Assembly: GCA_947631115.1 (NCBI GenBank)
Contig: CANRKB010000002.1
Span: forward strand, 124,001-188,000
Direction: 5' to 3'
DNA from: an uncultured Clostridia bacterium
GTDB taxonomy: Bacteria; Bacillota; Clostridia; Oscillospirales; Ruminococcaceae
DNA length: 64,000 nt
The notes beneath the pieces were generated by a model. It saw nothing but the letters and a program-made list of their open reading frames with translations. It made no database searches and was not told where the DNA came from. A program made the position numbers and the translations under genes. Shown here one piece after another: positions 33,380 to 49,624 of the stretch. How positions within the stretch are numbered: position 1 is the stretch's first letter; every line of letters starts with the position of its first letter.

Positions 33380-33411
33380 AATTATCCTTTCTTTATTAAA
33401 AAATAATACTA

Positions 33412-33440: not shown

Positions 33441-33468
33441 AAATGATGTGCATATAGTACCTTTCTAT

Positions 33469-33497: not shown

Positions 33498-33515
33498 GCG
33501 GTGAGGTGTATATTG

Positions 33516-34649
33516 ATGAATAATTTTTATCAAAGGACATGGGCTGAAATAAATCTTGACAATTTGTGCGGAAATATCGCGGTTTTAAGAGATATTGTCC
33601 CGAACAAAAAAATAATTGCCGTTGTAAAAGCAAACGCATACGGACACGGAGATATACAGTGCGCAGAAGCGCTGAACGGCTGCGGTATAGAAAATTTCTG
33701 CGTTTCCAATTTATGGGAAGCACAAAGACTTTACGACGCACACATAAAAGGCGAGATACTTATCTTCGGTTATTGCGATATTCCGCTTGTTTTGGAAAAT
33801 ATAGAAAAAAATTTTGTTTTTACGGTAGGAGATACCGAATATGCAAAAAAACTGTCTGACGCCGCCGAAAATTGCGGAAAAAAAGTTCCCGTAAACATAA
33901 AGATAGACACGGGCATGAGCCGCGTCGGAATAGACACCGAGGAGCAACTTGACAAGATAATTTCTCTAGGCGGGCTTGACTGCCGCGCGTGTTATACTCA
34001 TTTTGCCGTTTCGGACAGTCTTGATGAAAACGATATTGCTTTTACTAACGCTCAGCAGGAAAAAATTCTCAATATGTGCAAAAATCGCGTATTAAAATTC
34101 CACTCTCAAAACAGCGGCGGAATAATCTATCACAAGGATTTTTTGGGCGACTATGTCCGCGCGGGTATCATAATGTACGGTCAGAAACCCGACGCGCGTT
34201 TTCCTGTTCCCGACGGAATAAAGCCTGTTTTCTCTCTGAAAAGCGTAGTTTGCCAGCTTAAAACAATTCCCGCGGGAAAAACCGTAAGCTACGGCAGAAC
34301 GTTCACCGCGAAGCGTGACACTAAACTTGCGCTCATTCCCTGCGGCTATGCCGACGGCTTTAACAGGCGGCTTTCCGAAAACTGGAATGTAACGATAAAC
34401 GGACAGCCCGCGCCCGTATGCGGGAGAATATGTATGGATCAGACTCTTGTGGACGTGACGGACATTCCCGTTAATTTAGGCGACGAGGTAACCGTTTACT
34501 CAAACGAGCTTGACGGCGGGAACTCCGTAACTCAAGCCGCCGAGCAGATAGGAACAATAAACTATGAGCTTTTATGCGCGATAGGAACGCGCGTTCCAAG
34601 AATTTACATAAGAAACGGCGTTAAAACAGATATGCAGCGGTATCTTTAA
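33516..34649 (+). CDS. alr: Alanine racemase
   Basis: 377 aa. This PLP enzyme interconverts L- and D-alanine for peptidoglycan. The PLP Lys is in AVVKANAYGHG (about residue 38), the catalytic Tyr region at CGRICMDQTLVDVT and GTINYELLCAIG. The ATG at 33516 has GAGGTG 9 nt upstream; the GTG five codons earlier overlaps that site. Monocistronic, ended by a bidirectional terminator. Confidence 0.95.
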   Translation: MNNFYQRTWAEINLDNLCGNIAVLRDIVPNKKIIAVVKANAYGHGDIQCAEALNGCGIENFCVSNLWEAQRLYDAHIKGEILIFGYCDIPLVLENIEKNFVFTVGDTEYAKKLSDAAENCGKKVPVNIKIDTGMSRVGIDTEEQLDKIISLGGLDCRACYTHFAVSDSLDENDIAFTNAQQEKILNMCKNRVLKFHSQNSGGIIYHKDFLGDYVRAGIIMYGQKPDARFPVPDGIKPVFSLKSVVCQLKTIPAGKTVSYGRTFTAKRDTKLALIPCGYADGFNRRLSENWNVTINGQPAPVCGRICMDQTLVDVTDIPVNLGDEVTVYSNELDGGNSVTQAAEQIGTINYELLCAIGTRVPRIYIRNGVKTDMQRYL

Positions 34650-34660
34650 AAAATAATCCG

Positions 34661-34702
34661 ATAAAAAATCTCCCGAAGTTAAATTCGGGAGATAATTTTT
34701 TT
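34661..34702. terminator. Bidirectional terminator between alr and the amidase gene
   Basis: Stem ATCTCCCGAA/TTCGGGAGAT (34668-34693) flanked by an A-run on the left and a T-run on the right, serving converging transcripts. Confidence 0.85.
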
Positions 34703-37625
34703 AAAATTTACAACGCGCGTAATAGTCGACAATTCCCTGCGCGATAGCGTCAGCCATTTTGCTTTGATTATCACTGTTCGCCATTACAAGGCACTCGCGC
34801 TCATTTGAAACGAATCCCATCTCGACGAGTACCGACGGGAAGTTCGGCAATAACGTTACAAGGAAGTAATCATACTTTTCGCCGCGATTGCTCTTTGTTC
34901 CGTCAGAGTAATAACCGTCAAAAAATTTCGCTAAATTATCTGTAATATTCTTTGCGAGAGGCTGCGACCAAGGAGTAAAGTAATATGCTTCCGTGCCGTG
35001 AGGAGAAGTGCTTGTGTTAGCATTGCAGTGCAATGCGATAAACATATCTGCGTTTATCTTTCTCGCTTCATACGGACGCTGAGGCGTCGGATAAACAGTG
35101 CTTTCGGTGTTAAGGCGAACAACCTTTGCTCCGAGAGCAGTGAGCTTTTCCTCAAGTTTTTTAGAAACCGCAAGGTTTATAGACTGTTCCGTAACGCCGC
35201 CGATAGCTCCGGGATCCCAAACTCCGGGATTTGTATATCCGTGTCCGGGATCAATTACAATGGTTTTACCGCTAAGAGACGGAGTAGGCAAAGGGAAACT
35301 TATCCTGAGCAAACCGTTCTCGTCATATTTTGCAACAGCGCCGCTATAAATGCCTGCCTGTCTGAGAGTAAGCTTCAATCTGAATTTAGGAATATTATTT
35401 TCATTTACGACTTCCCATTCACCCGCGCTGAACAGTGAACATTCGCTGAAATCGGGAAGCGCCGTAACCGAAGTAACATTGTCGAATGTGATATAAATAT
35501 ACTGCGCGTTAAAGTTGGTAACTCCATACGGACCCTCGTATGAATCAACAAGCTCCTGCGAAGTAATGAGATTAAAGCTTGTCCTATAATCAAGAGATAT
35601 TGAGATATAGCTTCTTCCGCCGCTGTTTCCTATTTCTTTTACAACAAGGGAATTATAGCCGATGCCCTTTCCGTCGAATACCTGAACATCGCTTTGTGCA
35701 TAACGGCGTCCCGAATCTGTCATAACATAACCGTCGGTCTTTGACTTATAGTAGTCAAGCGTTCCTTCGGGCTGACGGAAAATCAACGGTGACGGAATTC
35801 TTCCCGTTGTTTTTGCGTCGAATATCTCACAACCGTCGTTTAATATCTTTACAAGTTTGACCGCCGTATCGTCTTTAATTATGGGATCAATCGTTCCCAC
35901 AATCTCGCCTGTTCCTGCGGCTGACTGATCAGGAATTATCTCAGCCTTTATGTCGTCTTCTTTCGGAGGCTCGGGCAACGCCTGTATGGTAATGCTTCCG
36001 CCCGTCATTACTTCGTCATAACCCTTGTACGTTGCATAGAAACTAATATTTCCGAGGTTCTGTTCTTTTCCTATAATGCCGTTTCCAACGGTATAATATC
36101 CGACAAATTGAGAATATGTACCGTTTGCGTCTACCTGCTCCGAAGAGGTCTTTTCATTAAGAGAAACAGTCTGTCCGTTTATCGTAGCCGAAACTTTCGA
36201 GCCGCTATACGCCACCGCGACCAGCGAGATCCTTGTTCCCTCTTCGACAACAACATTACCCGTGTTTTCTATTGATTTCAGTACGTCTACCCTGCGTTCG
36301 ATATTGTAAACTATTTTCCTTCCCTTATGTTCAAAGGTAAACCTGTTTTTGCCTACGGCAAGTTCTTTTTGGAAATAGAAATTTCCCGCTTCATTCAAGG
36401 TCAGCTTTTCGCCGTCGAAATAAACGTCAAAGTTCTCGTCGAATGTACCCATAAACTTTTCATAAGTGTTATAAGTTACATAATTCAACTGGTTCGGCGT
36501 AACCATTTCAAGATCTTCAAAAAGCGTTTGTGTATTTATCTGATTGTTGAAATATTTTATAAGCGTAGTTGTGCTGTTCAGATTATTTTGTTTCAGCGCC
36601 GACAAAGAATTGAATACGCTGCCGCCTACTTTATCAAACTTATCGTCAATGACGGATAGCTGACGCAAAAGCTGATCTTCGTTCCAGCCCGCACGGGTTC
36701 CAATTCTGTCGTTAAAATGATAGACGTACATTTTCGTACCCGATTTTTCAGCAACGTCATTCCACCACGAAATTACTTTTTCAAAATTAAGCGCGGCATT
36801 TTCCGTCGTTCCGTACGCCTTTACCATTACAAAATCAGCAAGTCCGCTTTCTATGTACTTCTTCGTGTCGCTATGACCGTCATAATACGCTGTAGCCGTA
36901 TCGTCTGTAGCGGAACCCTTTTCGTTCTGACTGGCGTTTGCCCACATATCCTCTATCATAATTCCCGCGCCGACAGAGTTATTTGTTTTATGTATAGCCT
37001 CGCAGACAGTCCTTATCATATATTCGTTTATTTCATAAAGCCACTTTTCATAGCCTATGCCAGAACCCGACTTCAGATATTCCGCATATGTATCAGCAGA
37101 GCTTCTATTATAATAATCAACAAGTATCAAACCCTCGCACGCATACTTCATAACAAATTTATGCGCCGCTGCGGAAAAGCCCTCTTTAAGACCTCCGCCC
37201 TGCTCTATAACCTTTTTTAAAAGCGAATTTACGTCTATGGTCACATATGCGGACAGACCCGAATTATGAGCTTCTTCTATTGCTTTTTCAATAATTCCTT
37301 TATTTTCAAGCTCTAGGTCATAAAAATCTTTTTCTTCCGTCGCAGAAGAAATTATGACGCTGTTCATACTGTAATCGAGTATTTCCGAAAATACCTCAGA
37401 AATATTTTCCTCGGTAAAATCGGTTTCGGGAGTGACAAAAACCGCTTTCATGTCATCCTGTAGGAATACCTTGCTTTCAGACATCTCGGGCGAAGCCGGC
37501 TGTTGTGAATTTTCCGAAGAGCTGTCGGGTACTTCGGGGAGATCCTCCGTTTCACCGAACACTGTCCCGACAAACATGCTCGCCGCAACTACAACCGATA
37601 AAATTCCCGTAAATATCTTTTTCAT
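34701..37625 (-). CDS. Secreted N-acetylmuramoyl-L-alanine amidase with N-terminal glycosidase-like domain
   Basis: 974 aa from the ATG at 37625, one base after the stop of the upstream lipoprotein gene. Signal peptide about 1-24. Residues ~55-360 resemble a glycoside-hydrolase-like (GHL10/YngK-type) TIM barrel (MKAVFVTPETDFT, YACEGLILVDYYN). Middle beta-rich domains follow. The C-terminal ~190 residues are Amidase_3: IVIDPGHGYTNPG, a Glu in GGVTEQSIN, ALHCNAN and the catalytic Glu in VLVEMGFVSNERE, so all zinc and catalytic residues are present. It would cut peptide stems from peptidoglycan outside the membrane. Family of the N-terminal domain is inference. Confidence 0.85.
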   Translation of the reverse strand: MKKIFTGILSVVVAASMFVGTVFGETEDLPEVPDSSSENSQQPASPEMSESKVFLQDDMKAVFVTPETDFTEENISEVFSEILDYSMNSVIISSATEEKDFYDLELENKGIIEKAIEEAHNSGLSAYVTIDVNSLLKKVIEQGGGLKEGFSAAAHKFVMKYACEGLILVDYYNRSSADTYAEYLKSGSGIGYEKWLYEINEYMIRTVCEAIHKTNNSVGAGIMIEDMWANASQNEKGSATDDTATAYYDGHSDTKKYIESGLADFVMVKAYGTTENAALNFEKVISWWNDVAEKSGTKMYVYHFNDRIGTRAGWNEDQLLRQLSVIDDKFDKVGGSVFNSLSALKQNNLNSTTTLIKYFNNQINTQTLFEDLEMVTPNQLNYVTYNTYEKFMGTFDENFDVYFDGEKLTLNEAGNFYFQKELAVGKNRFTFEHKGRKIVYNIERRVDVLKSIENTGNVVVEEGTRISLVAVAYSGSKVSATINGQTVSLNEKTSSEQVDANGTYSQFVGYYTVGNGIIGKEQNLGNISFYATYKGYDEVMTGGSITIQALPEPPKEDDIKAEIIPDQSAAGTGEIVGTIDPIIKDDTAVKLVKILNDGCEIFDAKTTGRIPSPLIFRQPEGTLDYYKSKTDGYVMTDSGRRYAQSDVQVFDGKGIGYNSLVVKEIGNSGGRSYISISLDYRTSFNLITSQELVDSYEGPYGVTNFNAQYIYITFDNVTSVTALPDFSECSLFSAGEWEVVNENNIPKFRLKLTLRQAGIYSGAVAKYDENGLLRISFPLPTPSLSGKTIVIDPGHGYTNPGVWDPGAIGGVTEQSINLAVSKKLEEKLTALGAKVVRLNTESTVYPTPQRPYEARKINADMFIALHCNANTSTSPHGTEAYYFTPWSQPLAKNITDNLAKFFDGYYSDGTKSNRGEKYDYFLVTLLPNFPSVLVEMGFVSNERECLVMANSDNQSKMADAIAQGIVDYYARCKF

Positions 37626-37626
37626 G

Positions 37627-39261
37627 TTAATTCCCCATTTTAAATGCATTTTTAAGTGCTTCTCTTTCCTTTTCAACTTTATCTTTTACATTTCCCCCGG
37701 GTTTGAACAAGCTGCTGTAAGAAAAGAGGCACAACCCCGAATAACTATCAAGCTGCTTTGCAGACATAAACTGTCTTGCAAGTATATTTTCATCATTTAT
37801 CCATTCATTTTTTCCCTGCGTCCCTGCCCACGCGTCTTCCGTACCGATTTTGTATACCGCCACGCCTATGACAAGTTTTGCATTTCCTTGTTTTACTATA
37901 TCGTTCCATTCCGAACAGCACTTTTCAAACGGCTGAGATTTATTATTAAATCCATAATATATCTGCGGCATTATAATATCGAGATAACCTTTTTCAGAAC
38001 ACCATTTCTTTACGTCGGCATACAAAACTTGGTAATCGTTGCTTATATTGCCCTGGGGACTGACGCTGAACAACATAGTATTGTTGACATTCTTAATTGC
38101 ACTGTAGATCGAAGAAACAAGTTTATCGCAATTTGCAAATCTGAAATCCGAAAGAGAACTGTATCCGCTTGCATTAAACGCCTGTTCGTCAAACGACTTA
38201 TCCGTTGTCGGGTAAAAATAATCGTCTATATGTACTCCGTCCACATCATAGTTTGAAACTATTTCTGCCACGCCGTCGGCGATCAGCTTTATAACATCGT
38301 CATAAGCGGGATTGAGATAATAATAACTTCCTACAAGTACTGCTTTTGTGCCGCTGCCTATCCATTCTCCTATCTTATAACCGTTCTCCCTTTGCACATC
38401 GCCCGAAGAACAAGCCCTCAAAGGATTTATCCAGGCATGAATGGACAATTTTCGTTCATGCGCTTCTTCAACGGCGATCTTGAGCGGGTCGTAGCTGCCG
38501 CCAACGCATTTTGTCCTCGGGAAAAGCGACGAACTGTAAAACGCGTCGCCGAAAGAGCGCGCATGAAAATAAACGGTATTTATTCCCATATCAACGCAGT
38601 TGTCAAAATATTTTTCGAGCGAACTCCTGAAATTGCTTTCCGAAGAACTGTTTATTGCCTCTATATCGCCGTATGACATCCATACGCCTCTTATTTCGCT
38701 GTAATTTAGCGCTGTATAGTCACTGTTCGGCACAACGGGCGGTGTTTCAACTTCCGGAGAACTTGAACTGAACGAAACGGAACCCGATAAGCTTAAACTC
38801 GGTAATTCGGAAGACGATGAACTCATGCCCGAAGATCCTACAGGAGCAGGACTCATGCTCGAAGATCCCACAAAAGAAGGGCTTATGCTCGAACTTTCTG
38901 TCGGACTCACGCTCGAAGATTTGGAAGACGACGAACTCAACGGTCTAGAGCTTGACGACTTGTTGGATACTTTAGAGCTTGATTTACTTGAACTTGACGA
39001 TTCCGAGTCAAAGCTTGATGACGAAGAACCCGAATTATGCAAGCTTGAAACCGACGGACCCGATACGGGCGACTGCATAATATCCGACGGGCTGAATTCC
39101 GTAGAGAAAAAAGACGATGAACTTTCATTTGCAAAGCTTGAACTCTGCGGACTGTAGGGCTCGACAATAAGCACCGTTTTGTTGTTCTCGTCCCGCATTT
39201 CAGCACAACCGCACATTCCCAATGCAGCTACAAGCAGAACTGCCAATAATTTATTTTTCAT
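37627..39261 (-). CDS. Lipoprotein with Ser-rich linker and GHL10-type glycosyl hydrolase-like domain
   Basis: 544 aa. A short signal sequence ends in LGMCGC; the Cys after Gly (residue 19) is the probable lipidation site, though the lipobox is imperfect. Residues ~36-170 are almost entirely Ser/Pro, a flexible linker across the wall. The remainder begins with EIRGVWMSYGDIEAI and has INTVYFHARSFGDAFYSS, DGVHIDDYFYPTT and IDIIMPQIYYG-type segments of the GHL10 (DUF187, YngK) family, whose substrates are likely wall or exopolysaccharide glycans. It is co-transcribed with the amidase gene from a consensus promoter. Confidence 0.85.
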   Translation of the reverse strand: MKNKLLAVLLVAALGMCGCAEMRDENNKTVLIVEPYSPQSSSFANESSSSFFSTEFSPSDIMQSPVSGPSVSSLHNSGSSSSSFDSESSSSSKSSSKVSNKSSSSRPLSSSSSKSSSVSPTESSSISPSFVGSSSMSPAPVGSSGMSSSSSELPSLSLSGSVSFSSSSPEVETPPVVPNSDYTALNYSEIRGVWMSYGDIEAINSSSESNFRSSLEKYFDNCVDMGINTVYFHARSFGDAFYSSSLFPRTKCVGGSYDPLKIAVEEAHERKLSIHAWINPLRACSSGDVQRENGYKIGEWIGSGTKAVLVGSYYYLNPAYDDVIKLIADGVAEIVSNYDVDGVHIDDYFYPTTDKSFDEQAFNASGYSSLSDFRFANCDKLVSSIYSAIKNVNNTMLFSVSPQGNISNDYQVLYADVKKWCSEKGYLDIIMPQIYYGFNNKSQPFEKCCSEWNDIVKQGNAKLVIGVAVYKIGTEDAWAGTQGKNEWINDENILARQFMSAKQLDSYSGLCLFSYSSLFKPGGNVKDKVEKEREALKNAFKMGN

Positions 39262-39309
39262 AGCTTTCCCCAGTATGTAAAAATTATCTTTTTCGGATAT
39301 ATATAATAT

Positions 39310-39338
39310 ATTTTAGCACATTTTATTATGTATGTCAA
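39310..39338 (-). promoter_or_regulatory. Promoter of the GHL10 lipoprotein-amidase operon
   Basis: Minus strand: -35 TTGACA (39333-39338), 17-nt spacer, -10 TAAAAT (39310-39315). Confidence 0.7.
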
Positions 39339-39349
39339 GTACTAAAAGC

Positions 39350-39382
39350 AAAAAAGAGTGCATTTTCTTGCACTCTTTTTTA
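39350..39382 (-). terminator. Terminator of spoVT
   Basis: Stem AAAAAAGAGTGCA/TGCACTCTTTTTT with a 6-nt loop, which can work in either direction; immediately after the spoVT stop. Confidence 0.8.
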
Positions 39383-39389
39383 TAGAAAT

Positions 39390-39935
39390 TCATTCTTCCA
39401 TTTGTTTTCCGAAATACATTGCCGCTGCCTGGACGAGGGCGGACTGTTCAGCAGTCGCGGTGTTTGTGGTGTTGTCGGAGCTTAGCATTATAACGGCTCC
39501 GTTTACATCTCCCGATGCAAGTATCGGCGAGCATACCAACGCATATCTGTCTACTCCCTCGATAGGATTTAACTTCTTGTCGCTGTCGTTTTTCAAAACG
39601 TACGTTTTTCGCTGTTCAATAAGGTCTTCAAGCGAGCCTGAAACTCTTCTCTCGATTATTTCTTTTTTACTCATTCCCGACACGGCGATAACGTGGTCGC
39701 GGTCGCAGATAACGGCGGGACATCCGCCGACTTTAGACAGAACGTCGGCATATTGTGAAGCCGTTGTGCTTATCTCGCCGACAGGCGAATATTTCTTAAA
39801 GATAACTTCTCCGTCGGGGCTGGTATATATTTCGAGCGGATCGCCCTCGCGTATCCGCATTGTCCTGCGGATCTCTTTCGGTATAACAACACGTCCGAGG
39901 TCGTCTATCCTGCGGACAATACCCGTTGCTTTCAT
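39390..39935 (-). CDS. spoVT: Stage V sporulation protein T
   Basis: 181 aa. N-terminal AbrB swapped-hairpin DNA-binding domain (GIVRRIDDLGRVVIPKEIRR, about 4-23) and a C-terminal GAF-like domain (about 55-180). It regulates forespore genes late in sporulation as a tetramer. Full-length and intact; proof that the organism is, or recently was, a spore former. GGAGG precedes the ATG. Confidence 0.96.
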   Translation of the reverse strand: MKATGIVRRIDDLGRVVIPKEIRRTMRIREGDPLEIYTSPDGEVIFKKYSPVGEISTTASQYADVLSKVGGCPAVICDRDHVIAVSGMSKKEIIERRVSGSLEDLIEQRKTYVLKNDSDKKLNPIEGVDRYALVCSPILASGDVNGAVIMLSSDNTTNTATAEQSALVQAAAMYFGKQMEE

Positions 39936-39979
39936 ATATTCTGTTCCTCCAATATTCTAAGAATTTTGATGTCGGGATA

Positions 39980-40009
39980 TAGTGTCTGCCGTTTACTTTT
40001 TTTTATTCA
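39980..40009 (-). promoter_or_regulatory. Possible sigma-G/F-type promoter of spoVT
   Basis: Minus strand: TGAATA (40004-40009), 17-nt spacer, GACACTA (39980-39986), five of seven matching the sigma-G -10 CATACTA. Known in B. subtilis: spoVT depends on sigma-G. Confidence 0.4.
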
Positions 40010-40071
40010 TTTTTTCGACAACTTTCTCTTAATAATGGAAATCTCTAATATGAAAAGCGGAATTTTATGTA

Positions 40072-40638
40072 TTATACTTCATTTGTCGTTTCTACAGATA
40101 TTTTTCTGCGGAAAACAGCTTTAAACAGCGTCCTTATGAGCGGTTGGATAAAGAAAAGCTGTGAAAAGAATGCAAATGGGAAATTATAGCAAACAAGCTT
40201 AAGCCAATTTGCCAGGAATGTTACAATATTAAATCCCGCATAGAACGGATAATATAATCCTGCTGCAATAAAGCTCATCATAGGACACATGATACCTACG
40301 GTAGCACATATTATAGCTGTTTCAAAAATGACCGGATCTGTATTTTTCGGATCGAATACCTTGCAAGCAAGTCTGAATGAAAGAGGGCTTCCGACAAGAC
40401 ATTCTAGCGCATAAGCAAATAAAAATTCAATAACAACGACCTCCCATATCGGCAAATAATTTCCGAACATATAAACTCCGCCCTGTTTTGAAATTGCTTC
40501 AAGCACACTCGCGGCATTATTTACCTCCATAAGTACCGTACCGTTTACAACATAAAGACTGTAGAAAACGTAAGCATGGACGGTTATAACAACAGTCATT
40601 AGGGCAAACATCATCCTCTCAAATTGGTTTCTCGGCAT
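40072..40638 (-). CDS. Membrane protein, DUF2798-like
   Basis: 188 aa with four hydrophobic segments arranged as two similar halves, each containing a pattern like the DUF2798 family (membrane helix, then P-x-x-R/RTL and a short basic tail). The function is unknown. It has its own promoter with an 18-nt spacer upstream. Confidence in the family is moderate. Confidence 0.65.
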   Translation of the reverse strand: MPRNQFERMMFALMTVVITVHAYVFYSLYVVNGTVLMEVNNAASVLEAISKQGGVYMFGNYLPIWEVVVIEFLFAYALECLVGSPLSFRLACKVFDPKNTDPVIFETAIICATVGIMCPMMSFIAAGLYYPFYAGFNIVTFLANWLKLVCYNFPFAFFSQLFFIQPLIRTLFKAVFRRKISVETTNEV

Positions 40639-40766
40639 AAATATAGATCTCCTTTTGAGTATTTACGCAAACAAAAAACTATACCTCTGACTGTAGATCA
40701 ACATTACGAGATCCGATCTGCATAACAAGGGTATAATATGTTTCAATGCGTATTCTTTTCTTTAAA

Positions 40767-40796
40767 ATTATAACATATTTTTACCGAAATTTTCAA
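40767..40796 (-). promoter_or_regulatory. Promoter of the DUF2798-like gene
   Basis: Minus strand: -35 TTGAAA (40791-40796), 18-nt spacer, -10 TATAAT (40767-40772). Confidence 0.5.
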
Positions 40797-40889
40797 ATGG
40801 TAATATTAAACAAACATATTCAACCCTATAACTAATAATATTATCAAAAATTCGGCAAAAAATAAGCGCATACGAAAGGAGCAAAGATA

Positions 40890-41024
40890 ATGAAAAATAA
40901 ACCCGTAAAACCTATAATCGACAACGAAAAACCTATCTCAAAAGTTTATCCCGTGATAGACAACGATCTCGCGAGGGACAATATAGAAAACGATATTCCC
41001 GACGCGGATCTTCAAGACTTGTAA
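40890..41024 (+). CDS. 44-residue acidic small protein
   Basis: MKNKPVKPIIDNEKPISKV at the N-terminus, very rich in Asp, Asn and Pro, with an internal repeat (P-I-I-D-N / P-V-I-D-N). AAAGGAG lies 9 nt before the ATG, and the stop is 12 nt before the Rieske oxidoreductase gene, which has its own AAAGGAG. This spacing argues that it is a real translated gene and co-transcribed. No family recognised. Confidence 0.6.
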   Translation: MKNKPVKPIIDNEKPISKVYPVIDNDLARDNIENDIPDADLQDL

Positions 41025-41036
41025 AAAGGAGAAATT

Positions 41037-42332
41037 ATGGACTCTGTATGGAAAAACAATGTGGAAATGCCAAAGTTTCCGAAGCTTGAAAGAAACGTAA
41101 AGACAGATATACTCATAATCGGCGGAGGCATAACAGGAATACTGACGGCGTATTTTCTTGAAAAATGCGGCGCAAATTATATCCTTGTTGAAAAGGACAA
41201 TATCTGCGGAGGAGTTACGGAAAACACAACGGCAAAGATAACTGTCCAGCATAAGCTTATATATCAAAGGATATTCAAAGAAAAAGGGCTTGACGCAGCT
41301 AGGCTTTATTATAAAGCAAACGCCGAGGCTTTAAGAAAATATGTCGAATTGTGTTCAAAAATTGATTGCGACTTTGATCTTAAAGACAGCTATGTGTTTT
41401 CAAGAGATGATCTCGGCGCGCTCGAACAGGAAGTTAAGATATTAAAAAAAATCGGCTGTAAAGCCGAACTTATATATAATTTACCGCTGCCGTTCCATAT
41501 TGCGGGCGCAGTAAAAATCCCGGGACAAGCCCGGTTTAATCCGCTTAAATTCCTCGCGAATATATCAAAAGGCTTAAAGATATACGAACACACAAAAGTA
41601 ACCGAATTTATGAACGACGTCGCCGTGACTGACGGAGGGAGAATAAAGGCGAACAAAATAATAATAGCGACTCACTTTCCTATTCTCAATAAACACGGAA
41701 GCTTTTTTCTGAAGCTCTATCAGTCGCGTTCTTATGTTATTGCTCTCGAAAATGCGCCCGATCTTAACGGGCTGTATGTTGAGGATACGGAAAACGGACT
41801 TTCGTTCAGGAATTATAAAAACTTGCTGCTGATAGGGGGCGGCGGTCACCGAACAGGTAAGAACGGCGGCAATTGGAACGAACTGAGGCGGTTTTCAAGA
41901 AAGGCTTATCCCGAAGCCAAAGAAGCATACCATTGGGCAACGCAGGACTGTATGAGCCTTGACGGGATACCCTATATCGGACAGTATTCCAAAGCAACTC
42001 CGAATCTTTTCACCGCAACAGGCTTTAATAAATGGGGAATGACTTCGGCGATGGTAGCCTCCAATATGCTAAAAGACCTTGTAACAGAGAAAAGCGCTCC
42101 GTATGCAAAGCTCTTCGACCCCTCGCGAAACATTCTCACTCCGCAGCTTGCGGTAAACAGCTTAGAAGCAATATCAGGTCTGCTCACTCCGTCTGTCAGG
42201 CGCTGCCCGCACCTCGGCTGCAGGCTGGTATGGAACAAAGACGAACATTCCTGGGACTGTCCATGTCACGGTTCTCGTTTTTCCGAAAGCGGAAAGCTCC
42301 TCGACAATCCCTCAAACAACGACCTGTTATAA
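41037..42332 (+). CDS. FAD-dependent oxidoreductase with C-terminal Rieske [2Fe-2S] domain
   Basis: 431 aa. The N-terminal DAO-type FAD domain has ILIIGGGITGILTAYFLEKCG (about residues 25-45 in the ADP-binding fold) and DGIPYIGQYS near 310. The last ~50 residues form a Rieske cluster site, CPHLGC then WDCPCHGSRF, i.e. C-x-H and C-x-x-H ligands all present. This architecture occurs in glycine/D-amino-acid-oxidase-like proteins of unknown substrate. The 3' end overlaps the convergent MATE gene by 6 nt. Confidence 0.88.
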   Translation: MDSVWKNNVEMPKFPKLERNVKTDILIIGGGITGILTAYFLEKCGANYILVEKDNICGGVTENTTAKITVQHKLIYQRIFKEKGLDAARLYYKANAEALRKYVELCSKIDCDFDLKDSYVFSRDDLGALEQEVKILKKIGCKAELIYNLPLPFHIAGAVKIPGQARFNPLKFLANISKGLKIYEHTKVTEFMNDVAVTDGGRIKANKIIIATHFPILNKHGSFFLKLYQSRSYVIALENAPDLNGLYVEDTENGLSFRNYKNLLLIGGGGHRTGKNGGNWNELRRFSRKAYPEAKEAYHWATQDCMSLDGIPYIGQYSKATPNLFTATGFNKWGMTSAMVASNMLKDLVTEKSAPYAKLFDPSRNILTPQLAVNSLEAISGLLTPSVRRCPHLGCRLVWNKDEHSWDCPCHGSRFSESGKLLDNPSNNDLL

Positions 42333-43709
42333 TGTCTTTTTTGAATTCTCTGCCGCCTGAAGTCTTCCGAGCTTCCCTACAAAGCTCACCGCAAACGGAA
42401 GCGACGCTAAAGCTGTCAATATGTCCGAAATAGCCTGGGAAAGCTGTATTCCTACCAAGCCGCTTGTCGCCGTAAATATCAGCAATATCGGGATAAAGAA
42501 CAGTCCGCTCCTCATCATTGAGAGCAGCGTTGCTATTCCCGATTTGCCAGAGCTTTGGAACATCATATTTGTACAGACTGCGACAGGCTGGAAAAACTGT
42601 CCGATAAACTGCGCCGAAAGCGCAAACGTTCCTATTCTTATAACCTCGGGATCGTTTCTAAATATCGCTATAAGCTCATCGGAAAAAATAAATCCCAGAA
42701 TGGCAACGCTTCCCAAAATGACCTCTCCGACGGCAAGAGTAAAGATAAACGCGCTTCTTACTCTTCCGTATTTCTTTGCGCCGTAATTAAATGCGCAAAC
42801 AGGCTGAAATCCCTGACCTATGCCGAGAGAAGTAGCAAACGTAAAGAAACAGATCCTGTTTACAATGGACATCGCCGCTATGGCCTCGTCTCCGTATGCT
42901 TCGGCGCAGTTATTGAGAAGCATTGTAGAAATGCTCGTAAGTCCTTGTCTGACAAGGCTCGGAAAACCTGTCTTGCATATATCGAACCAGTCGGCAAAAC
43001 TTTTTGATATTTTCTTAATCGAAAGTTTAGAAGAAGTTTTTCCGACAAAGAACATTATAAGCAGTATCATAAAGCTTATAAACTGAGAAACAGCGGTCGA
43101 TATGCCCGCGCCCGTAACGCCGAGGTCAAAAACTTTCATCAATATCCAGTCGCCGAAAATATTCAGTATACCGCCCGAAGCAAGTCCTATTGTCGCCAAA
43201 GCCGCCTGTCCCTCAAAACGAAGCACGTTGTTTAAAACGCAGCTTGAACACAAAAACGGCGCGGCTATAAGAATATATACCGCATACTCTCTTGCATAAG
43301 GGAGTATAGTGTCGGTGCTTCCGAGAAGATACATAAACGGATCTATAAATATAATTCCGAAAACAGCTATAATTGCGCCCGACATAACAGACGCAAAAAA
43401 TCCCGTCGAGCTGTATTTTGACGCTCTTTCAACGTCTTTTGCTCCGAGAGCGCGCGACGCAAGGCTGCCCGAACCCTGTCCGAACATAAACCCGAACGCC
43501 TGTAAAATAGCCATAAGACCGAATACAATTCCTACTGCGCCCGAAGCGCTGTTTCCGTATGAGCTGAGGAAAAACGTATCTGCCATATTGTAAATGCTCG
43601 TAACCAGCATACTGAGCGTTGTAGGTATCCCGAGCTTTATTATAAGCTTAGGGATAGGAGTTTCGGTCATTTTTTTATATTGTATCTTTTCTCTTTCCGC
43701 TGCGTCCAT
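42327..43709 (-). CDS. MATE family multidrug/sodium antiporter
   Basis: 460 aa with about 12 hydrophobic segments. MATE features: a first helix with LGIPTTLSMLVTSIYNMADT, GFMFGQGSGSLASRALGA, and the second-half GFPSLVRQGLTSISTMLLN. AAGGG lies upstream of the ATG at 43709. It exports cationic compounds in exchange for Na+ or H+. It starts 16 nt after the sigma-K fragment's stop. Confidence 0.9.
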   Translation of the reverse strand: MDAAEREKIQYKKMTETPIPKLIIKLGIPTTLSMLVTSIYNMADTFFLSSYGNSASGAVGIVFGLMAILQAFGFMFGQGSGSLASRALGAKDVERASKYSSTGFFASVMSGAIIAVFGIIFIDPFMYLLGSTDTILPYAREYAVYILIAAPFLCSSCVLNNVLRFEGQAALATIGLASGGILNIFGDWILMKVFDLGVTGAGISTAVSQFISFMILLIMFFVGKTSSKLSIKKISKSFADWFDICKTGFPSLVRQGLTSISTMLLNNCAEAYGDEAIAAMSIVNRICFFTFATSLGIGQGFQPVCAFNYGAKKYGRVRSAFIFTLAVGEVILGSVAILGFIFSDELIAIFRNDPEVIRIGTFALSAQFIGQFFQPVAVCTNMMFQSSGKSGIATLLSMMRSGLFFIPILLIFTATSGLVGIQLSQAISDILTALASLPFAVSFVGKLGRLQAAENSKKTL

Positions 43710-43725
43710 TTTATTCCCTTTTCTG

Positions 43726-44085
43726 TTATTCGTCAAATCTTGCGCGAAGTTTTTCGAGAGCCTTTTTTTCGATCCTCGATATATACGAGCGCGATATTCC
43801 GAGTTGCTTTGCTATTTCGCGCTGGGTCATCGGTTCATAGACGTTTCCGTCTTTATCGGCTATTCCATAGCGTTTGCAGATGATCTCGCGTTCACGGCCG
43901 TCAAGTTCTTCGGAAATGAATTTATACAGCTTTTCGCTGTTTATTTTTAATTCGGCTGTTTGCTCGATATTTACGTCGCTGCTGTAAATATCCTCTATAG
44001 TAAGAGAGTTTCCCTCCGCGTCGCAGTCGATAGGCTCGGTAAAAAGCACCTCGTCTTTCTTGTGTTTTATCTTTCTGAAGTGCAT
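43726..44085 (-). CDS. sigK: Sigma-K C-terminal half (regions 3-4), lacking N-terminus
   Basis: 119 codons. The sequence matches the C-terminal half of sporulation sigma-K: KDEVLFTEPIDCDAEGN, then region 4 QREIAKQLGISRSYISRIEK. Regions 1 and 2 are absent. Homology starts a few codons upstream of this ATG: in-frame N-Q-I-K-M-H-F-R (from 44097) aligns with N-E-I-L-M-H-L-R of B. subtilis sigma-K, where that gene is interrupted by the skin element. No Shine-Dalgarno lies before the ATG. I infer a split gene that needs recombination in the mother cell; a decayed remnant is the alternative. The N-terminal half and a serine recombinase are not in this window. Confidence 0.75.
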   Translation of the reverse strand: MHFRKIKHKKDEVLFTEPIDCDAEGNSLTIEDIYSSDVNIEQTAELKINSEKLYKFISEELDGREREIICKRYGIADKDGNVYEPMTQREIAKQLGISRSYISRIEKKALEKLRARFDE

Positions 44086-44094
44086 TTTTATTTG

Positions 44095-44114
44095 GTTAGC
44101 AATTACACCCTAAC
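44095..44114. other. Candidate recombination half-site at the sigK break
   Basis: Inverted repeat GTTAG-10 nt-CTAAC that straddles the point (44097/44098) where sigma-K homology ends. Possible attachment site of a skin-like element. Hypothesis only. Confidence 0.3.
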
Positions 44115-44233
44115 GGAAACATTTGAATATTCCGCTAATGCGACAATTTAATTATATCACAACTTTGTTGGATTGTCAACAATGTCACTTTTATATAAAA
44201 TTGATAATTTTCTGAAAATTTTAAAAAACTGTA

Positions 44234-44301: not shown

Positions 44302-44685
44302 ATGGACATAATTTTAAGCAATATGACGGACAAGCCTATCTATCAGCAAATAATCGAGCAGATAAAGGCGCTTATAATGAGCGGAGAACTCTCTGAGGGC
44401 GAAGCTCTGCCGTCAATGAGGACGCTTGCCCAACAGCTGAGGATAAGCGTTATCACAACAAAGCGCGCATATGAAGAGCTTGAAAACGAGGGCTATATTG
44501 AAAACTTTACGGGAAAGGGTTGTTTTGTAAAAAAACAAAACAGCGACTTTCTGCATGAAGAAATGGTACGCCAGACGGAAAAGCTGATTTCGGACGCCTG
44601 CGAAAAAGCGAGGCTCTGCGGGCTGACGCTCGATGAAATGAAAGAAATACTGGAAATTTATTATGGAGGTAATATAGATGAATGA
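44302..44685 (+). CDS. GntR family (YtrA subfamily) transcriptional regulator
   Basis: 127 aa. N-terminal winged helix (PIYQQIIEQIKALIMSGEL, then PSMRTLAQQLRISVITTKRA) and a short C-terminal helical tail of the YtrA subfamily, with no ligand domain. It likely represses its own operon through the palindrome overlapping the promoter. It overlaps the ABC ATPase gene by 8 nt. Confidence 0.92.
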   Translation: MDIILSNMTDKPIYQQIIEQIKALIMSGELSEGEALPSMRTLAQQLRISVITTKRAYEELENEGYIENFTGKGCFVKKQNSDFLHEEMVRQTEKLISDACEKARLCGLTLDEMKEILEIYYGGNIDE

Positions 44686-45556
44686 TTATGAAAATGCAAT
44701 TGAAATAAACGGTATTACGAAAAAATATGACGGGTTTACCCTTGACGGCATATCATTTAATCTGCCAAAGGGCGACATACTCGGCTTTATCGGTCAGAAC
44801 GGCGCAGGCAAAACAACGACGATAAAATCAATACTGAATATAATCGCGCCTAACAGCGGAGAAATAAAAATTTTCGGGCTTGACCACATCAAGCACGAAA
44901 ACGAGATCAAAAAACACATTTCGGCGGTATTTGACGAGATACCGTTTCATGACAGCTTTACCGCAAATGCGATAAATACGGTAATGAAAGGTATGTACAG
45001 CGAATGGGACGAAAAACTGTACTTCTCGTATATTGAAAAATTCGGACTTCCGAAGAAAAAGAAGATAGGAAAACTTTCAAAGGGAATGAAGATGAAACTT
45101 CAAATAGCCTATGCCCTTTCGCACAACGCAAAGCTGCTTATTATGGACGAAGCGACGACAGGGCTTGACCCGATAGTAAGAAACGAGATACTTGATATAT
45201 TCCGCGAATATCTGAAAGACGGCGAGAGAAGTATTCTTATGTCCTCGCATATCACGAGCGATATTGAAAAAATAGCCGACTGCGTTGCTTTTATAGACAA
45301 AGGAAAAATTCTGCTTTCGGGATATAAGGACGATATTATTGAAAATCACGGTATAATAAAATGCTCTAAAGCCGATTTTCAAGAAATTGCCAAAGAAGAT
45401 TATATCAGCGCGAGAACAAACGATTTCGGCGCGGAAGTTCTTGTATCGGACAGAGCGGCGGCAAAGCAAAAGTACAGCGGAGCCGTAATAGAAAAAGCCT
45501 CGCTCGAAGACATAATGCTGTTCTATGTGAACAGGGATAAAAAGGAGTGGACATAA
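44678..45556 (+). CDS. ABC transporter ATP-binding protein
   Basis: 292 aa. Walker A GQNGAGKTTTIKS (about 39-51), signature LSKGMKMKL, Walker B LLIMDEATTGLDP and the switch His in SSHITSD. It resembles drug/bacitracin-type or YtrB exporters. Start by GGAGG 8 nt upstream. It pairs with the two permeases that follow. Confidence 0.93.
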   Translation: MNDYENAIEINGITKKYDGFTLDGISFNLPKGDILGFIGQNGAGKTTTIKSILNIIAPNSGEIKIFGLDHIKHENEIKKHISAVFDEIPFHDSFTANAINTVMKGMYSEWDEKLYFSYIEKFGLPKKKKIGKLSKGMKMKLQIAYALSHNAKLLIMDEATTGLDPIVRNEILDIFREYLKDGERSILMSSHITSDIEKIADCVAFIDKGKILLSGYKDDIIENHGIIKCSKADFQEIAKEDYISARTNDFGAEVLVSDRAAAKQKYSGAVIEKASLEDIMLFYVNRDKKEWT

Positions 45557-46326
45557 TGAGTTCGTTTTTGCGGCTTGTTTATCGCGATATTTATATGTCA
45601 AAGAAAGCGCTGCTTATTTCGGCTTTTTCGTTTATTGCATTTTTTGTGTTGTCGATACTTATCGTCATAAGCTTTGACAATGGAAACATAAGAACTATAC
45701 TTCTTGAAACCGTGCTTAAAGATCTGCCCTACGCAGAAGAAATGCTCGGAATATATAAAGAAAACTTCGGATTTGTCCTTAAAATCTATCCGATACTCTG
45801 CGCCGGTTTTATGTCCGTAGAAATCGCACAAGTTTCAATAAACGACGAAAAGACAGCATGGAAATATTTTTACAAATCAGCTCCGATAAGCTGCCGGAAA
45901 AAAGCGCTGGTCAAATTCTTTGAATTTTTTGTTCTTGATATACTTGGCTTTGTCATAAGCTACGGGTATTCGCTTGTTTTCTCGGCGGTTTCAGGAATAG
46001 AGATGAGCCGCTCGGATATGGGAATGATACTGGCGGGAATGGCTTTGGGAACAGCCATAGCGGTGCTTTTGTACATTTTTATACTTATGTTTCATTCTTT
46101 GGACAAAGCAGGACTTATGCTTACAGCAGTGTTTGCAGCGGTGATAGTAGGCATAGAAACCTATTTTGCTTTTCACCCACAAAAAGATGTTTCCGACATA
46201 GGACCGTTTGAAGTACTAAAAAATGCTTTTGAAACTCTCTCTTTGTATTCCGTTTTGATAACGGCGGCGTTTCTGCTGGTCGGATTTATTATTACCGAAA
46301 TGCTTTACAAAAGGAGGGAGAAATAA
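45556..46326 (+). CDS. ABC-2 type permease
   Basis: 256 aa with six hydrophobic segments and no extracellular domain. It starts in a TAATG overlap with the ATPase stop, with AAGGAG upstream. Probably forms a heterodimer with the next permease. Substrate unknown; for the YtrA-type systems cell-envelope stress compounds are common. Confidence 0.85.
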   Translation: MSSFLRLVYRDIYMSKKALLISAFSFIAFFVLSILIVISFDNGNIRTILLETVLKDLPYAEEMLGIYKENFGFVLKIYPILCAGFMSVEIAQVSINDEKTAWKYFYKSAPISCRKKALVKFFEFFVLDILGFVISYGYSLVFSAVSGIEMSRSDMGMILAGMALGTAIAVLLYIFILMFHSLDKAGLMLTAVFAAVIVGIETYFAFHPQKDVSDIGPFEVLKNAFETLSLYSVLITAAFLLVGFIITEMLYKRREK

Positions 46327-47027
46327 TGAAAAGCTATCTTTTTAAAGAATTATTTCTGAACAAAAGCACGCTTTTAGTTCTGGCTTCGTTACAAGCCTTG
46401 AGTATTGCAGTGGTAGTTATGTGTGAGGTTTATTATGGAGATTCGGATATTGAATTTAGTGAAACTGTTTGCGTTGTTTTACAGCTTATGAATTTTGCTT
46501 TTGCGGATTTTTTCGGCGCAATGTTTAAAAACGACGAAAAACATTCGTGGACGGATTTTGTCTGTTCTTCTCCGCAGACATTCAAAGGGCAAATACTTGC
46601 AAAATATGTTTATCTGTTTTCAATAAATTTGATCATTCTCATTTCGGGACTTATTATGTCAATGTTTATACTGAAACTGAAAGCAAGCTCTTTTTCCGTT
46701 CTCTGTATGTGTCTGTTTTTCGGGATATGCGTTTTGCTTGACGCGATAAAACTTCCGTTTATCTACCGTTTCGGATACAGCATAGGCTCAAAGTGCGGGC
46801 TTATATCTTTGGGAGTTATAGCGTTTGCGGCGCTGATTTACGTTTTGTTCGGGGATATATCGTTTATAGACTTTAACGACCTTTGGGGAAGCATACTTGA
46901 CTTTGCGAATAATAACGGTATAAGGAACATTGTGGCTGTAATATGCATAGCCTGTATTCCCTGCTATGCGGTCTCGCTTCTTATATCTTCAAATGTATAC
47001 AAAAAATGGATAGAAGTTAGGGAATGA
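46326..47027 (+). CDS. ABC-2 type permease, second subunit
   Basis: 233 aa with six hydrophobic segments. It starts in a TAATG overlap with the previous permease, with GGAGG upstream, and resembles the same family. It is the last gene of the GntR-ABC operon; no clear terminator hairpin follows. Confidence 0.8.
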   Translation: MKSYLFKELFLNKSTLLVLASLQALSIAVVVMCEVYYGDSDIEFSETVCVVLQLMNFAFADFFGAMFKNDEKHSWTDFVCSSPQTFKGQILAKYVYLFSINLIILISGLIMSMFILKLKASSFSVLCMCLFFGICVLLDAIKLPFIYRFGYSIGSKCGLISLGVIAFAALIYVLFGDISFIDFNDLWGSILDFANNNGIRNIVAVICIACIPCYAVSLLISSNVYKKWIEVRE

Positions 47028-47141
47028 AATATTTACGAAATTTTTGCAAGTCCGGTATATAAAAATTGCATAAAAATTTTAAAATAAGTTGAAAAGATAG
47101 ATTAACAAAGCCGAAAATTCAAAGCAGACAAGAAAATTCTG

Positions 47142-47170
47142 TTGAATTAAAAATATTTATGTGCTATAAT
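47142..47170 (+). promoter_or_regulatory. Promoter of the SLC13/ArsB-type permease operon
   Basis: -35 TTGAAT (47142-47147), 17-nt spacer, -10 TATAAT (47165-47170). Confidence 0.7.
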
Positions 47171-47212
47171 GATTGCACGATAATATAGTTTAACTCATCG
47201 GAGGTCTTTTTT

Positions 47213-48562
47213 ATGGCTGCTGTTTTTGCTGTCATTATCTTTGTGATAATGTTTATACTGATAGTGATAGACAAGATAGAAAGGCAATACGTAACGCTCG
47301 GCTGCGGACTGCTGACAATAATTGTCGTGTTCGGTCTATGTATGAAAAGCATGAGCGCTATATGGGATACTCTTGCGTTTAAGAGCTTTGCGACAACAGA
47401 GTTCTGGTATCAGGTAACAGAAAGCGAAAGCAAGGGCATAAACTGGGCTACGATAATCTTTATAGCGGGCATGATGATAATGGTCGAGGGAATGGCAAAA
47501 GCGGGATTTTTCCGCTGGCTGTGCCTCAGGATAGCATATCTTGTAAAATGTAAGACCGTTCCTATTTTCATAACGTTTGTCATTATGTCGGCGGTGCTTT
47601 CAATGTTCATCGACAGCATAACGGTAATAATGTTCCTTGCAGCGGTTACGATTGAACTTGCGCACGTACTTAACTTCAACCCCGTTCCGATGATACTTTC
47701 TGAAATATTCTGCGCAAATCTGGGCGGCTCTGCGACGATGTGCGGCGATCCGCCGAATATAATAATCGGAACCTCTCTCGGATTTTCGTTCTTCGATTTT
47801 CTTTCAAATACGGGAATTGCCGCGGGAATAAGTCTTGTTCTGTGCATTATATACTTTTATCTTGTTTTCAGAAAAGATCTTGTTTCAAAGGACAAAACCG
47901 AAAAGGCGGATATTTCAAAGCTCCCGAAACCGAGCGACGCAATTAAAAGCAAAAAGGATTTTATCATAAGCAGCGTTATTTTCGGAATAGCCGTCGTACT
48001 GCTTGTTACGCACTCAATGACGCATCTTACGGTCGCGACAATAGGTCTGTTTATTGCGATAATTACTCTTATCACTGCGGGAAAGTCGGCGCTTGAACAT
48101 ATAAAAAGAATAGACTATAAAACGATATTGTTTTTCATAGGGCTGTTTATAGTAGTAAGCGGACTTGAAGAAACGGGAATACTCGTGTTTATAGCCGACT
48201 TTATCGGGAAGATAAGCAACGGAAACGCAATGATAATGATAATTATAATAATATGGGTGTCGGCTGTTGCGAGCGCGTTTGTGGACAATATTCCGTTTGC
48301 GGCGACAATGGTTCCCGTTATTCAAAGCCTTGCGGCTTCAACAGGCGTCAGCATAAACACTCTCGCATGGTCGCTTTCTTTGGGAACGGATATTGGCGGC
48401 AGCGCAACTCCCATAGGCGCTTCGGCAAATGTCGTTGGTACGTCTATTGCCGCTAAAAACGGTCACCCTGTCGGCTGGGGCAAATATTGCGCGAAGCTTG
48501 CTCCCGCAACGGTTATTGTGCTTATCATATCGACCGTGTATATATTCGCAAGATACCTTTAA
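47213..48562 (+). CDS. SLC13/ArsB/NhaD-type ion transporter
   Basis: 449 aa with about 11-12 hydrophobic segments in two related halves. Conserved re-entrant motifs: FIDSITVIMFL with NLGGSATMCGDPPNIIIG in the first half and VDNIPFAATMVPV with GTDIGGSATPIGASANVVG in the second. These are typical of the ion-transporter superfamily. The substrate (citrate, Na+, arsenite, dicarboxylate) cannot be settled. The ATG follows GGAGG. Next comes a cytidylate-kinase-like gene in the same operon (18 nt gap). Confidence 0.85.
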   Translation: MAAVFAVIIFVIMFILIVIDKIERQYVTLGCGLLTIIVVFGLCMKSMSAIWDTLAFKSFATTEFWYQVTESESKGINWATIIFIAGMMIMVEGMAKAGFFRWLCLRIAYLVKCKTVPIFITFVIMSAVLSMFIDSITVIMFLAAVTIELAHVLNFNPVPMILSEIFCANLGGSATMCGDPPNIIIGTSLGFSFFDFLSNTGIAAGISLVLCIIYFYLVFRKDLVSKDKTEKADISKLPKPSDAIKSKKDFIISSVIFGIAVVLLVTHSMTHLTVATIGLFIAIITLITAGKSALEHIKRIDYKTILFFIGLFIVVSGLEETGILVFIADFIGKISNGNAMIMIIIIIWVSAVASAFVDNIPFAATMVPVIQSLAASTGVSINTLAWSLSLGTDIGGSATPIGASANVVGTSIAAKNGHPVGWGKYCAKLAPATVIVLIISTVYIFARYL

Positions 48563-48580
48563 AAATCAGGAGGACGCAAC

Positions 48581-49174
48581 ATGTCACAAATTATTATTTC
48601 CGTAGGGCGTGAATTCGGAAGCGGCGGCAGAGTGATAGCCGAGGCTCTCGCAGAAAGATTTCAGATACCGGTATACGACCGTCATCTGATAACAGAGATT
48701 GCCGAAAAAACGGGGCTTTCACATGACGAAGTTGAAAGATATAACGAAGTTCCGAAATCAAGGCTGGCTTCAAGGCGCGTTAGAGGTTTCAGCAACTCGA
48801 TCGAGGACAATATTGCCGAAATGCAGTTTGAGATCATGGATAAAAAAGCCGCAAGCGGAGAATCGTTTGTTATTGTGGGGCGCTGCTCCGAAACAAAGCT
48901 CAAAAAGTATCCGGGGCTTGTTTCGATATTTGTTCTCGGCGATATGAGCGCTAAAATAAAACGCGTTATGGAAATATACGGTTTATCCGAAAACGAAGCA
49001 AAAGCGCTTATTGAAAAGAAAGACCGCAGAAGAAAAAGCTATCACGACTATCATGTAAATTCGCGCTGGGGCGAAGCGAAGTTTTACGATATTACAATAA
49101 ACAGCTCGCGCCTAGGAATAGATAGAACGGTAGATATTCTCGAAGAATATATAAAAGCAAGGGCTGAAAAATAA
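48581..49174 (+). CDS. Cytidylate kinase-like family protein
   Basis: 197 aa. P-loop GREFGSGGRVIAEALAE (about 8-24), YDRHLI and a late RRKSYHDYHVNSRWG. It is a member of the Cytidylate_kin2 family, often encoded beside transporters; the phosphorylated substrate is unknown. It is followed by a strong terminator. Confidence 0.85.
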   Translation: MSQIIISVGREFGSGGRVIAEALAERFQIPVYDRHLITEIAEKTGLSHDEVERYNEVPKSRLASRRVRGFSNSIEDNIAEMQFEIMDKKAASGESFVIVGRCSETKLKKYPGLVSIFVLGDMSAKIKRVMEIYGLSENEAKALIEKKDRRRKSYHDYHVNSRWGEAKFYDITINSSRLGIDRTVDILEEYIKARAEK

Positions 49175-49178
49175 ACAT

Positions 49179-49216
49179 AGCGGCGATTATCGTCTGATGA
49201 TAACCGCCGCTTTTTA
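49179..49216 (+). terminator. Terminator after the cytidylate-kinase-like gene
   Basis: Stem AGCGGCGATTATC/GATAACCGCCGCT (one bulge) followed by TTTTT. It also lies at the 3' end of the convergent deformylase gene. Confidence 0.8.
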
Positions 49217-49624
49217 TATGATTATCCCGTTTAAATGGTCTATCTCATGCTGTATGATCTGAGCCGTAAAGCCCGTGTATGTTTTTATCCGCTGTTTTAG
49301 ATCAATGTTTTGAAACTTTATCTTTATCGTTTTATAGCGTTTTGTTTTTCGCGTTCCCGAAAGGGATAAACAGCCCTCTTCCGTTTCGTAAATTCCCGAA
49401 CGGCTGATTATTTCGGGATTGAACATAAGAGTATAAACTCCGTTGTCGTCAAAAACAATTATAGATTTTGCGACGCCTATCATATTTGCCGCCATTCCGA
49501 CACAATCGGATGAATGAGCTTTTAACGTATCGAGCAGGTCATAGGCTGTCTGAAGATCGCTTTCATCGGCAGGCTTTGACTTTATGCCGAGAAAAAACGC
49601 GTCGTGTACGATTTCTTTTACCAT
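49214..49624 (-). CDS. Peptide deformylase-like protein
   Basis: 136 aa. Motif 2 EEGCLSLSG (metal-ligand Cys 85) and motif 3 QHEIDHLNG (His 126, Glu 127, His 130) are intact. Motif 1, normally GxGLAAPQ, is GMAANMIG, and the protein ends right after motif 3, without the C-terminal helix of canonical enzymes. It is probably active but belongs to the divergent, shorter class. Last of a four-gene operon. Confidence 0.85.
   Translation of the reverse strand: MVKEIVHDAFFLGIKSKPADESDLQTAYDLLDTLKAHSSDCVGMAANMIGVAKSIIVFDDNGVYTLMFNPEIISRSGIYETEEGCLSLSGTRKTKRYKTIKIKFQNIDLKQRIKTYTGFTAQIIQHEIDHLNGIII

Follow-up and report, generated by a model that had tools for sequence, protein, structure and literature searches.

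The gut bacterial genome analyzed here (G000; 2.06 Mb in 60 contigs, 96.4% complete) encodes sigK in two halves that have the same orientation, with the C-terminal half (C-half) located upstream of the N-terminal half (N-half) at a distance of 47,273 bp, measured core to core. This is most probably a developmentally split sigK in inside-out order, the halves of which are joined through recombination by a large serine recombinase (LSR) onto a 47-kb circle. With somewhat less assurance, we favor the further reading that the joining amounts to a programmed fission of the mother-cell chromosome by a phage-type recombinase freed of its mobile element, giving a circle of ~47 kb that carries the rejoined sigK and essential genes and a second circle of ~2.0 Mb.

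The window, i.e., the whole stretch of 64,000 bp that was analyzed (C2:124001-188000), contains sigK only as its C-half, as the initial annotation had stated. An ORF at 44085-43726 on the minus strand translates as MHFRKIKHKKDEV...RARFDE, and its homology extends upstream to NQIKMHFR at position 44097, the point at which the fragment had been said to start. An in-frame stop codon lies just 5' of this homology (R*GVIANQIKM), and no Shine-Dalgarno-like stretch could be seen by eye ahead of the ATG at 44085, again as previously noted. The top NCBIfam match of the C-half is NF004471 (SigK), with 120.5 bits over profile positions 111-228 of 235, compared to 88 bits for SigE; TIGR02846 gave 116.2 bits. 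These values are below the whole-protein cut-offs of NF004471 and TIGR02846, as expected for half a protein. The C-half is real and its match is not due to chance (E = 6e-35). Regions 3 and 4 had both been described as intact, and this could be shown for region 4 only, since Sigma70_r4 (65.8 bits) was among the Pfam matches and region 3 was not. The break presumably corresponds to the junction between codons 112 and 113 in B. subtilis. The coordinates of these and other features are given in the table.

Table. Features of the inside-out sigK locus in G000 (positions without a contig prefix are those of the window)
Feature	Position	Strand	Basis and remarks
Candidate RDF	C2:116359-116535	minus	Small conserved ORF divergent from LSR
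LSR	C2:116614-118200	plus	528 aa; Resolvase, Recombinase and Zn-ribbon Pfam domains over cut-off
sigK N-half	C2:120783-121172	minus	SigK model search of whole genome; 2.8 kb left of window
attL	C2:120824 (outside window)		Partner of attR, at N-half
Predicted 47,273-bp circle, in-window part	1..44097		Continues left to attL at C2:120824; then bioB-, bioY- and birA-like genes, LSR, candidate RDF
pepF, class II fructose-bisphosphate aldolase, hisF, hisA, hisD, hisZ	806..13281	minus	NCBIfam; on predicted circle; genes also lie between these
polC, ispG, rseP, dxr, (unnamed), uppS, frr, pyrH-like, homoserine dehydrogenase	13406..25233	minus	Pfam and NCBIfam; on predicted circle
glgA, ilvD, ROK glucokinase-like, alr, CwlD-like amidase, spoVT-like	25892..39935		NCBIfam; on predicted circle
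MATE transporter gene	42327..43736	minus	NCBIfam; directly downstream of C-half, likewise downstream of intact sigK in G022
sigK C-half	43726-44097	minus	N of NQIKM to stop codon; profile matches; omega 0.022-0.084
attR	44070..44125	minus	P' arm ~44099-44124, core AA 44096-44097, B' arm in coding region
GntR-type regulator, ABC-type genes, peptide deformylase	44302..49624		Outside predicted circle, P' side; GntR and deformylase by NCBIfam, ABC genes by eye; synteny

The missing half had been expected to the right of the C-half. This location was rejected, as the genes there encode BrxL, PglZ and BrxC, and a search of the genome located both the N-half and an LSR on the left side, beyond the window edge, with 47.3 kb between the halves. 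The BREX genes are thus outside the segment between the halves and not, as one of the earlier options would have it, part of an element. This gene set occupies window positions 56559-63981 (minus strand) and includes a cysteine-desulfurase-like gene, matched best by DndA and SspA in PADLOC, then BrxL, PglZ and the C-terminal part of BrxC, running off toward the window end.

The SigK model searched against the whole of G000 matched an N-part at C2:120816-121169 and a C-part at C2:167735-168106 on the same strand, and a near full-length gene on C9. The latter scores 348.9 bits with SigE, over the cut-off of 339, and also 258.6 bits with the SigK subfamily (cut-off 252); it is named SigE because the SigE score is the better. 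No other complete SigK-like gene was listed by this search of the 96.4%-complete genome, and only one N-part match and one C-part match were found, with no extra att site or second copy. A complete sigK elsewhere, or the absence of both an N-half and a recombinase, was to have counted against the initial proposal of a split gene with a recombinase-type break; the N-half and LSR are both present, no complete sigK was found, and the proposal stands.

The N-half (minus strand) reads ...SRCIDN and then leaves the homology, and the C-half opens with NQIKMHFR. When the junction sequences of the two ends were compared, as had been recommended, a common core and P arms that resemble each other as inverted repeats were identified. 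The core of the two sides is TAA (AA in all rows; CAA at attR of G028), and the arms on the two sides differ. In G000, the stretch that follows the N-half core agrees at 22 of 26 positions with the stretch ahead of the C-half core when the latter is reverse-complemented. All ten genomes with both sites show this pattern (15-22 of 26 positions), a likeness that was reached in none of 2000 shuffles in nine genomes and in 8 of 2000 in G033. We take this to be the look of the P arms in a serine-integrase attP. The attR core and arm are common to the 11 lined-up genomes with a C-half. All 17 inverted pairs detected in 43900-44350 have their arms away from the break, contrary to the claim of a local inverted repeat astride it. 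What remains of that claim is the arm near 44100-44124, which exists, but its partner is 47 kb away beside the N-half. The locus thus shares with the skin type two same-strand halves, one common cut point and a common core.

Joining the halves at the core by script gave an uninterrupted SigK of 239 aa, with the junction (CIDN/QIKM) in frame. The joined protein scores higher with SigK (234.1 bits) than with SigE (183.5 bits), and the intact SigK of the related genome G022 scores 235.4. The joined protein misses the curated SigK cut-offs (234.1 vs. 252 and 226.0 vs. 298.65), as does the intact G022 protein (235.4 and 221.4), and the TIGR02846 cut-off is passed by a match in only one of 61 relatives.

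The LSR (388 bits to the phrog_95 integrase) is encoded 2.6 kb past the N-half, behind bioB-, bioY- and birA-like genes. At a threshold of at least 55% identity it occurs in 13 of the 43 genomes of the genus (all genomes compared are MAGs), with an open reading frame in all 13, and every one of these has an N-half cut at the same junction. In the remaining 30 genomes there is no LSR at this threshold, and the next-best LSRs are 42% (G064) and 33% (G017) identical. The junction was read in 20 non-LSR genomes (17 plus G061, G064 and G066; G017 later meets a contig end), and sigK is uninterrupted in all of them. Among the other non-LSR genomes, G023, G026, G029 and G062 have N-part matches and stand outside the junction reading. 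No N-part match at 1e-20 was found in six of the 43 genomes (G004, G007, G018, G021, G031 and G035).

A scan of GTDB-220 contigs yielded 38 LSR loci, 12 of which, at 54% identity or more, correspond to contigs of the same genus genomes. The N-half is within the locus in 11 of these; in the twelfth (L153), from G033, the LSR is on a short contig of its own. An LSR encoded beside the N-half is a further feature that the locus shares with the skin type. All 12 loci are from MAGs labelled uncultured Clostridia or Oscillospiraceae, and six come from sets named Lapin, which suggests a rabbit source. Also found was an LSR with 38% identity in a MAG named uncultured Roseburia sp. (L176, 3238-5294), which ends beside a sigK-like C-terminal part (44% identity) and is possibly another split sigK.

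A divergent ORF of 59-67 aa, the candidate recombination directionality factor (RDF), adjoins the LSR in 10 of the 13 genomes (in G012 the frame is open further upstream) and is found some kb from it in G019 and G030. Matches occur in all 13 LSR genomes, although in G028 they are weaker and on other contigs, and weaker copies (47-60 bits) are present in five of the 30 non-LSR genomes. Profile searches returned no family match for this protein. Its omega values, where dS is finite, are 0.17-0.37, higher than those of the sigK halves. One of the weaker copies (G014:C11:9193-9378, L092) lies ~2 kb from an intact sigK and is perhaps the trace of a lost element.

A sigma-E promoter before the candidate RDF was sought by eye and none was convincing; a conserved TTGTACA stretch was all that emerged, in the gap between the candidate RDF and the LSR (C2:116536-116613), reading CTTGTACAAG in seven genomes. 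Measured from the start of the LSR, it is at -40 or -43 and in register in 8 of 10 aligned genomes (displaced in G063, absent from G003). Upstream of the N-half, a conserved block fits a SpoIIID consensus (WWRRACARNY) in seven of the eight inside-out species and in G022. No fit was found at this place in G033, G063, G001 or G015.

The skin-type order of N-half, element and C-half, by which the gene would be restored on the chromosome, is not that of G000. The inside-out order also occurs on single contigs in G005 (49,312 bp), G009 (48,232 bp) and G065 (59,071 bp). G002, G006, G012 and G033 are spread over contigs, with ends and gene order that fit the inside-out plan. The ordinary order, with the N-half upstream, is found in G019 (38,795 bp) and G063 (6,743 bp). 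Order assignments leave out G003, G028 and G030; no C-half was found in G002, G003 and G030, the assemblies of which are incomplete or fragmented. The ordinary-order element of G063 (G063:C4:52021-59453, L144), at 6.7 kb, is very short; besides the LSR and a candidate RDF, it encodes a cellulase-like protein of 1332 aa that has carbohydrate-binding modules.

Instead of a prophage-like or otherwise mobile piece, as lies between the halves in the skin type, the segment in G000 carries housekeeping genes, several of which are probably essential. A mechanical count gives 43 non-overlapping ORFs of at least 60 aa for the whole segment. The glucokinase, CwlD and SpoVT matches are below their cut-offs, and the ORF at window positions 21104-22135 has no NCBIfam match at 1e-60. 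In the outgroup G001 the block from the histidine kinase to polC is directly beside an argF-like gene, with no sigK there, and in the outgroup G015 the same block is contiguous too. Thus, the segment is old chromosome and not a guest element. The earlier suggestion that a rearrangement had separated the halves comes near the truth, except that the att sites are still direct and the halves can be joined on a circle.

Purifying selection acts on both halves. Omega is 0.025-0.108 in 26 of 28 pairs for the N-half and, among the split species, 0.022-0.084 in 19 of 21 pairs for the C-half; the remaining pairs have saturated dS, and many finite dS values are >1 (mostly so outside the closest group), so that these estimates are rough. 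The low values argue against decay, which the initial annotation had considered and of which there is no sign. Nevertheless, sigK could be a decaying relic, broken by rearrangement in a lineage that has lost late sporulation or uses another sigma factor. In keeping with this, the halves are 47 kb apart in an order from which ordinary excision would not restore a chromosomal gene, SigE and other sigma factors are present, and relic C-halves do occur in the genus. However, both halves were translated for the omega analysis without a frameshift or stop, the LSR is open in every genome that has it, the att arms are kept, and SpoIIID and SpoIVA are encoded in G000 along with SigE. We therefore regard a relic as improbable, if the least improbable of the alternatives.

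G015 has an intact sigK and seven C-halves (C13, L111-L114; C5, L134; C41, L135), and G031 has four (C7, L097 and L131; C19, L133) and no N-part match; neither genome has this LSR. Where read, the extra C-halves have their own P' arm and core. That they form a switchable array was considered and rejected. Most pairs in a comparison of five of the seven from G015 and three of the four from G031 share only the P' arm, core and C-half (~375-510 bp; 730 bp in one pair). These copies look like relics. In G019, the surroundings of the ordinary-order C-half include a second, degenerate C-half, interrupted by two stop codons, as well as short pieces of an LSR (G019:C4:25726-26037 and C4:28745-28922, L064).

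Marginally less probable than a relic is a joining of the halves by some other route, such as a second rearrangement, or an exchange between chromosome copies after which sigK would still be on a chromosome of full length. An exchange in trans between sister chromosomes, at attL and attR, is conceivable, but the lack of an extra att site or second copy in G000 argues against such routes, and for two direct sites on one molecule excision is the simplest outcome. We give slightly less credence again to the idea that the order is an assembly artefact, or that the living genome has an ordinary or intact sigK that the MAG missed. All genomes are metagenome assemblies, and that of G000 is incomplete and in many contigs; yet the same order and neighbors recur in the four contiguous inside-out assemblies, which are from different species and on contigs of 162-408 kb, the four others fit by contig ends and synteny, and the junctions agree across species. 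Least probable of all is a two-part sigma factor whose halves are made and act together as separate polypeptides, with no DNA recombination involved. In its favor, the two reading frames remain open and are conserved, and two-subunit sigma factors exist (SigO-RsoA of B. subtilis). Against it, the C-half has neither a Shine-Dalgarno nor a start codon ahead of its conserved part, the N-half tail past the core varies among species while the att arms are alike at the DNA level, and the LSR and the split go together in 13 of 13 genomes.

The seven inside-out species in the tree and G022, which has an intact sigK, form one clade (100/100), with G022 as sister to them or nested among them. The split sigK of G019, G063 and G028 (the last grouped as conventional in the tree, its order not being among those assigned) are at three other places, each beside uninterrupted sigK; thus, splits appear to come or go repeatedly. 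The G022 locus reads HK-sigK-MATE, followed by two small ORFs and a block that ends in the deformylase gene. From such a locus, the inside-out order may have arisen by an LSR event and reinsertion of a circle, although a move by other means is the alternative. An LSR with attP would have been located beside argF, and one attP x attB event would have given argF-LSR-N-half-HK and a circle holding the C-half, attR, the deformylase block and MATE. If this circle opened between MATE and the block and was inserted again on the far side of the genes upstream of polC, the four junctions of the inside-out genomes would be reproduced.

Returning to a split sigK joined by the LSR, we propose that during sporulation the LSR from the N-half side recombines attL and attR in the mother cell, probably assisted by the small conserved protein encoded divergently from it. 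This would join the halves in frame and leave attP on the rest of the chromosome. As the att sites are direct, the reaction would be a deletion and not an inversion, with the joined gene on the piece between them. The rejoined sigK would therefore leave the main chromosome on a 47-kb circle with ~40 genes, including polC, frr, dxr, ispG and alr. Only a terminal cell could tolerate a chromosome in two circles, which calls for tight confinement of the reaction, presumably, by analogy with skin systems, to the mother cell during sporulation. The halves, LSR, att sites, order, conservation and co-occurrence are read from the sequence; from them we infer the recombination, its timing in the mother cell and the action of the candidate RDF in attL x attR recombination. 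No read or contig carrying the circle or the joined gene turned up, and a search of viral contigs for the circle or scar, a weak test, gave no match for either of two patterns.

If this is correct, sigma-K activation coincides with a step that is lethal to a growing cell, and so acts as a genetic one-way lock on sporulation. A leak in growing cells would be lethal, which makes control by the RDF directly testable. In known sporulation rearrangements a guest element is removed and its loss does little harm, whereas here core chromosome would be cut out along with the restored gene. Developmental recombination could thus outlive the mobile element that brought it, and programmed splitting of the genome in a terminal cell would have a bacterial example. 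A practical consequence is that sigK may look missing when a search assumes the customary order and spacing of its halves.

The available literature on skin, skinCd, gin, SPbeta, yin and sigK-integrated prophages, seen in part and with preprints and most subscription papers outside the search, yielded no description of an inside-out order or of core-chromosome excision. What is unusual here is the order, reversed and retained in several species, which would turn skin-type excision into a chromosome split.

In B. subtilis, the skin element lies between the N-half and the C-half, and sigK is restored on the chromosome. In G000 the C-half is upstream, core chromosome is between the halves, and sigK would be restored on a circle. 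The two systems are alike in having direct sigK halves, an LSR (SpoIVCA in skin) beside the N-half and a small RDF-sized protein near the LSR (for B. subtilis, in part from PMC6957869). According to that paper, the skin protein, Skr, is 64 aa long, and the att site in C. difficile sigK is in a different region of the gene from that of B. subtilis (PMC6957869). In C. difficile skinCd, likewise, an LSR and a small RDF act on att sites in sigK; according to the available sections of PMC5025042, the 72-aa RDF CD1234 is needed for excision and the LSR CD1231 alone suffices for integration. Our candidate RDF (59-67 aa) is similar in size to both Skr and CD1234. If the same division of labor holds in an inside-out genome it would be protective, since the LSR without the RDF would return the circle. 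Unlike the segment in G000, skinCd is a prophage-like element in ordinary order. In the accessible accounts of gin in gerE, SPbeta in spsM and yin in yabG, a recombinase also rejoins a sporulation gene, and the excised piece is prophage-like or mobile, in contrast to the core chromosome found here (PMC5595907, PMC4191935, PMC10747680). Also close to G000 are the ordinary-order genomes G019 and G063, which have an LSR of the same family (58-60% identity), the same core, arms and split point, and a candidate RDF. They differ in that the N-half is upstream, so that excision would restore sigK on the chromosome.
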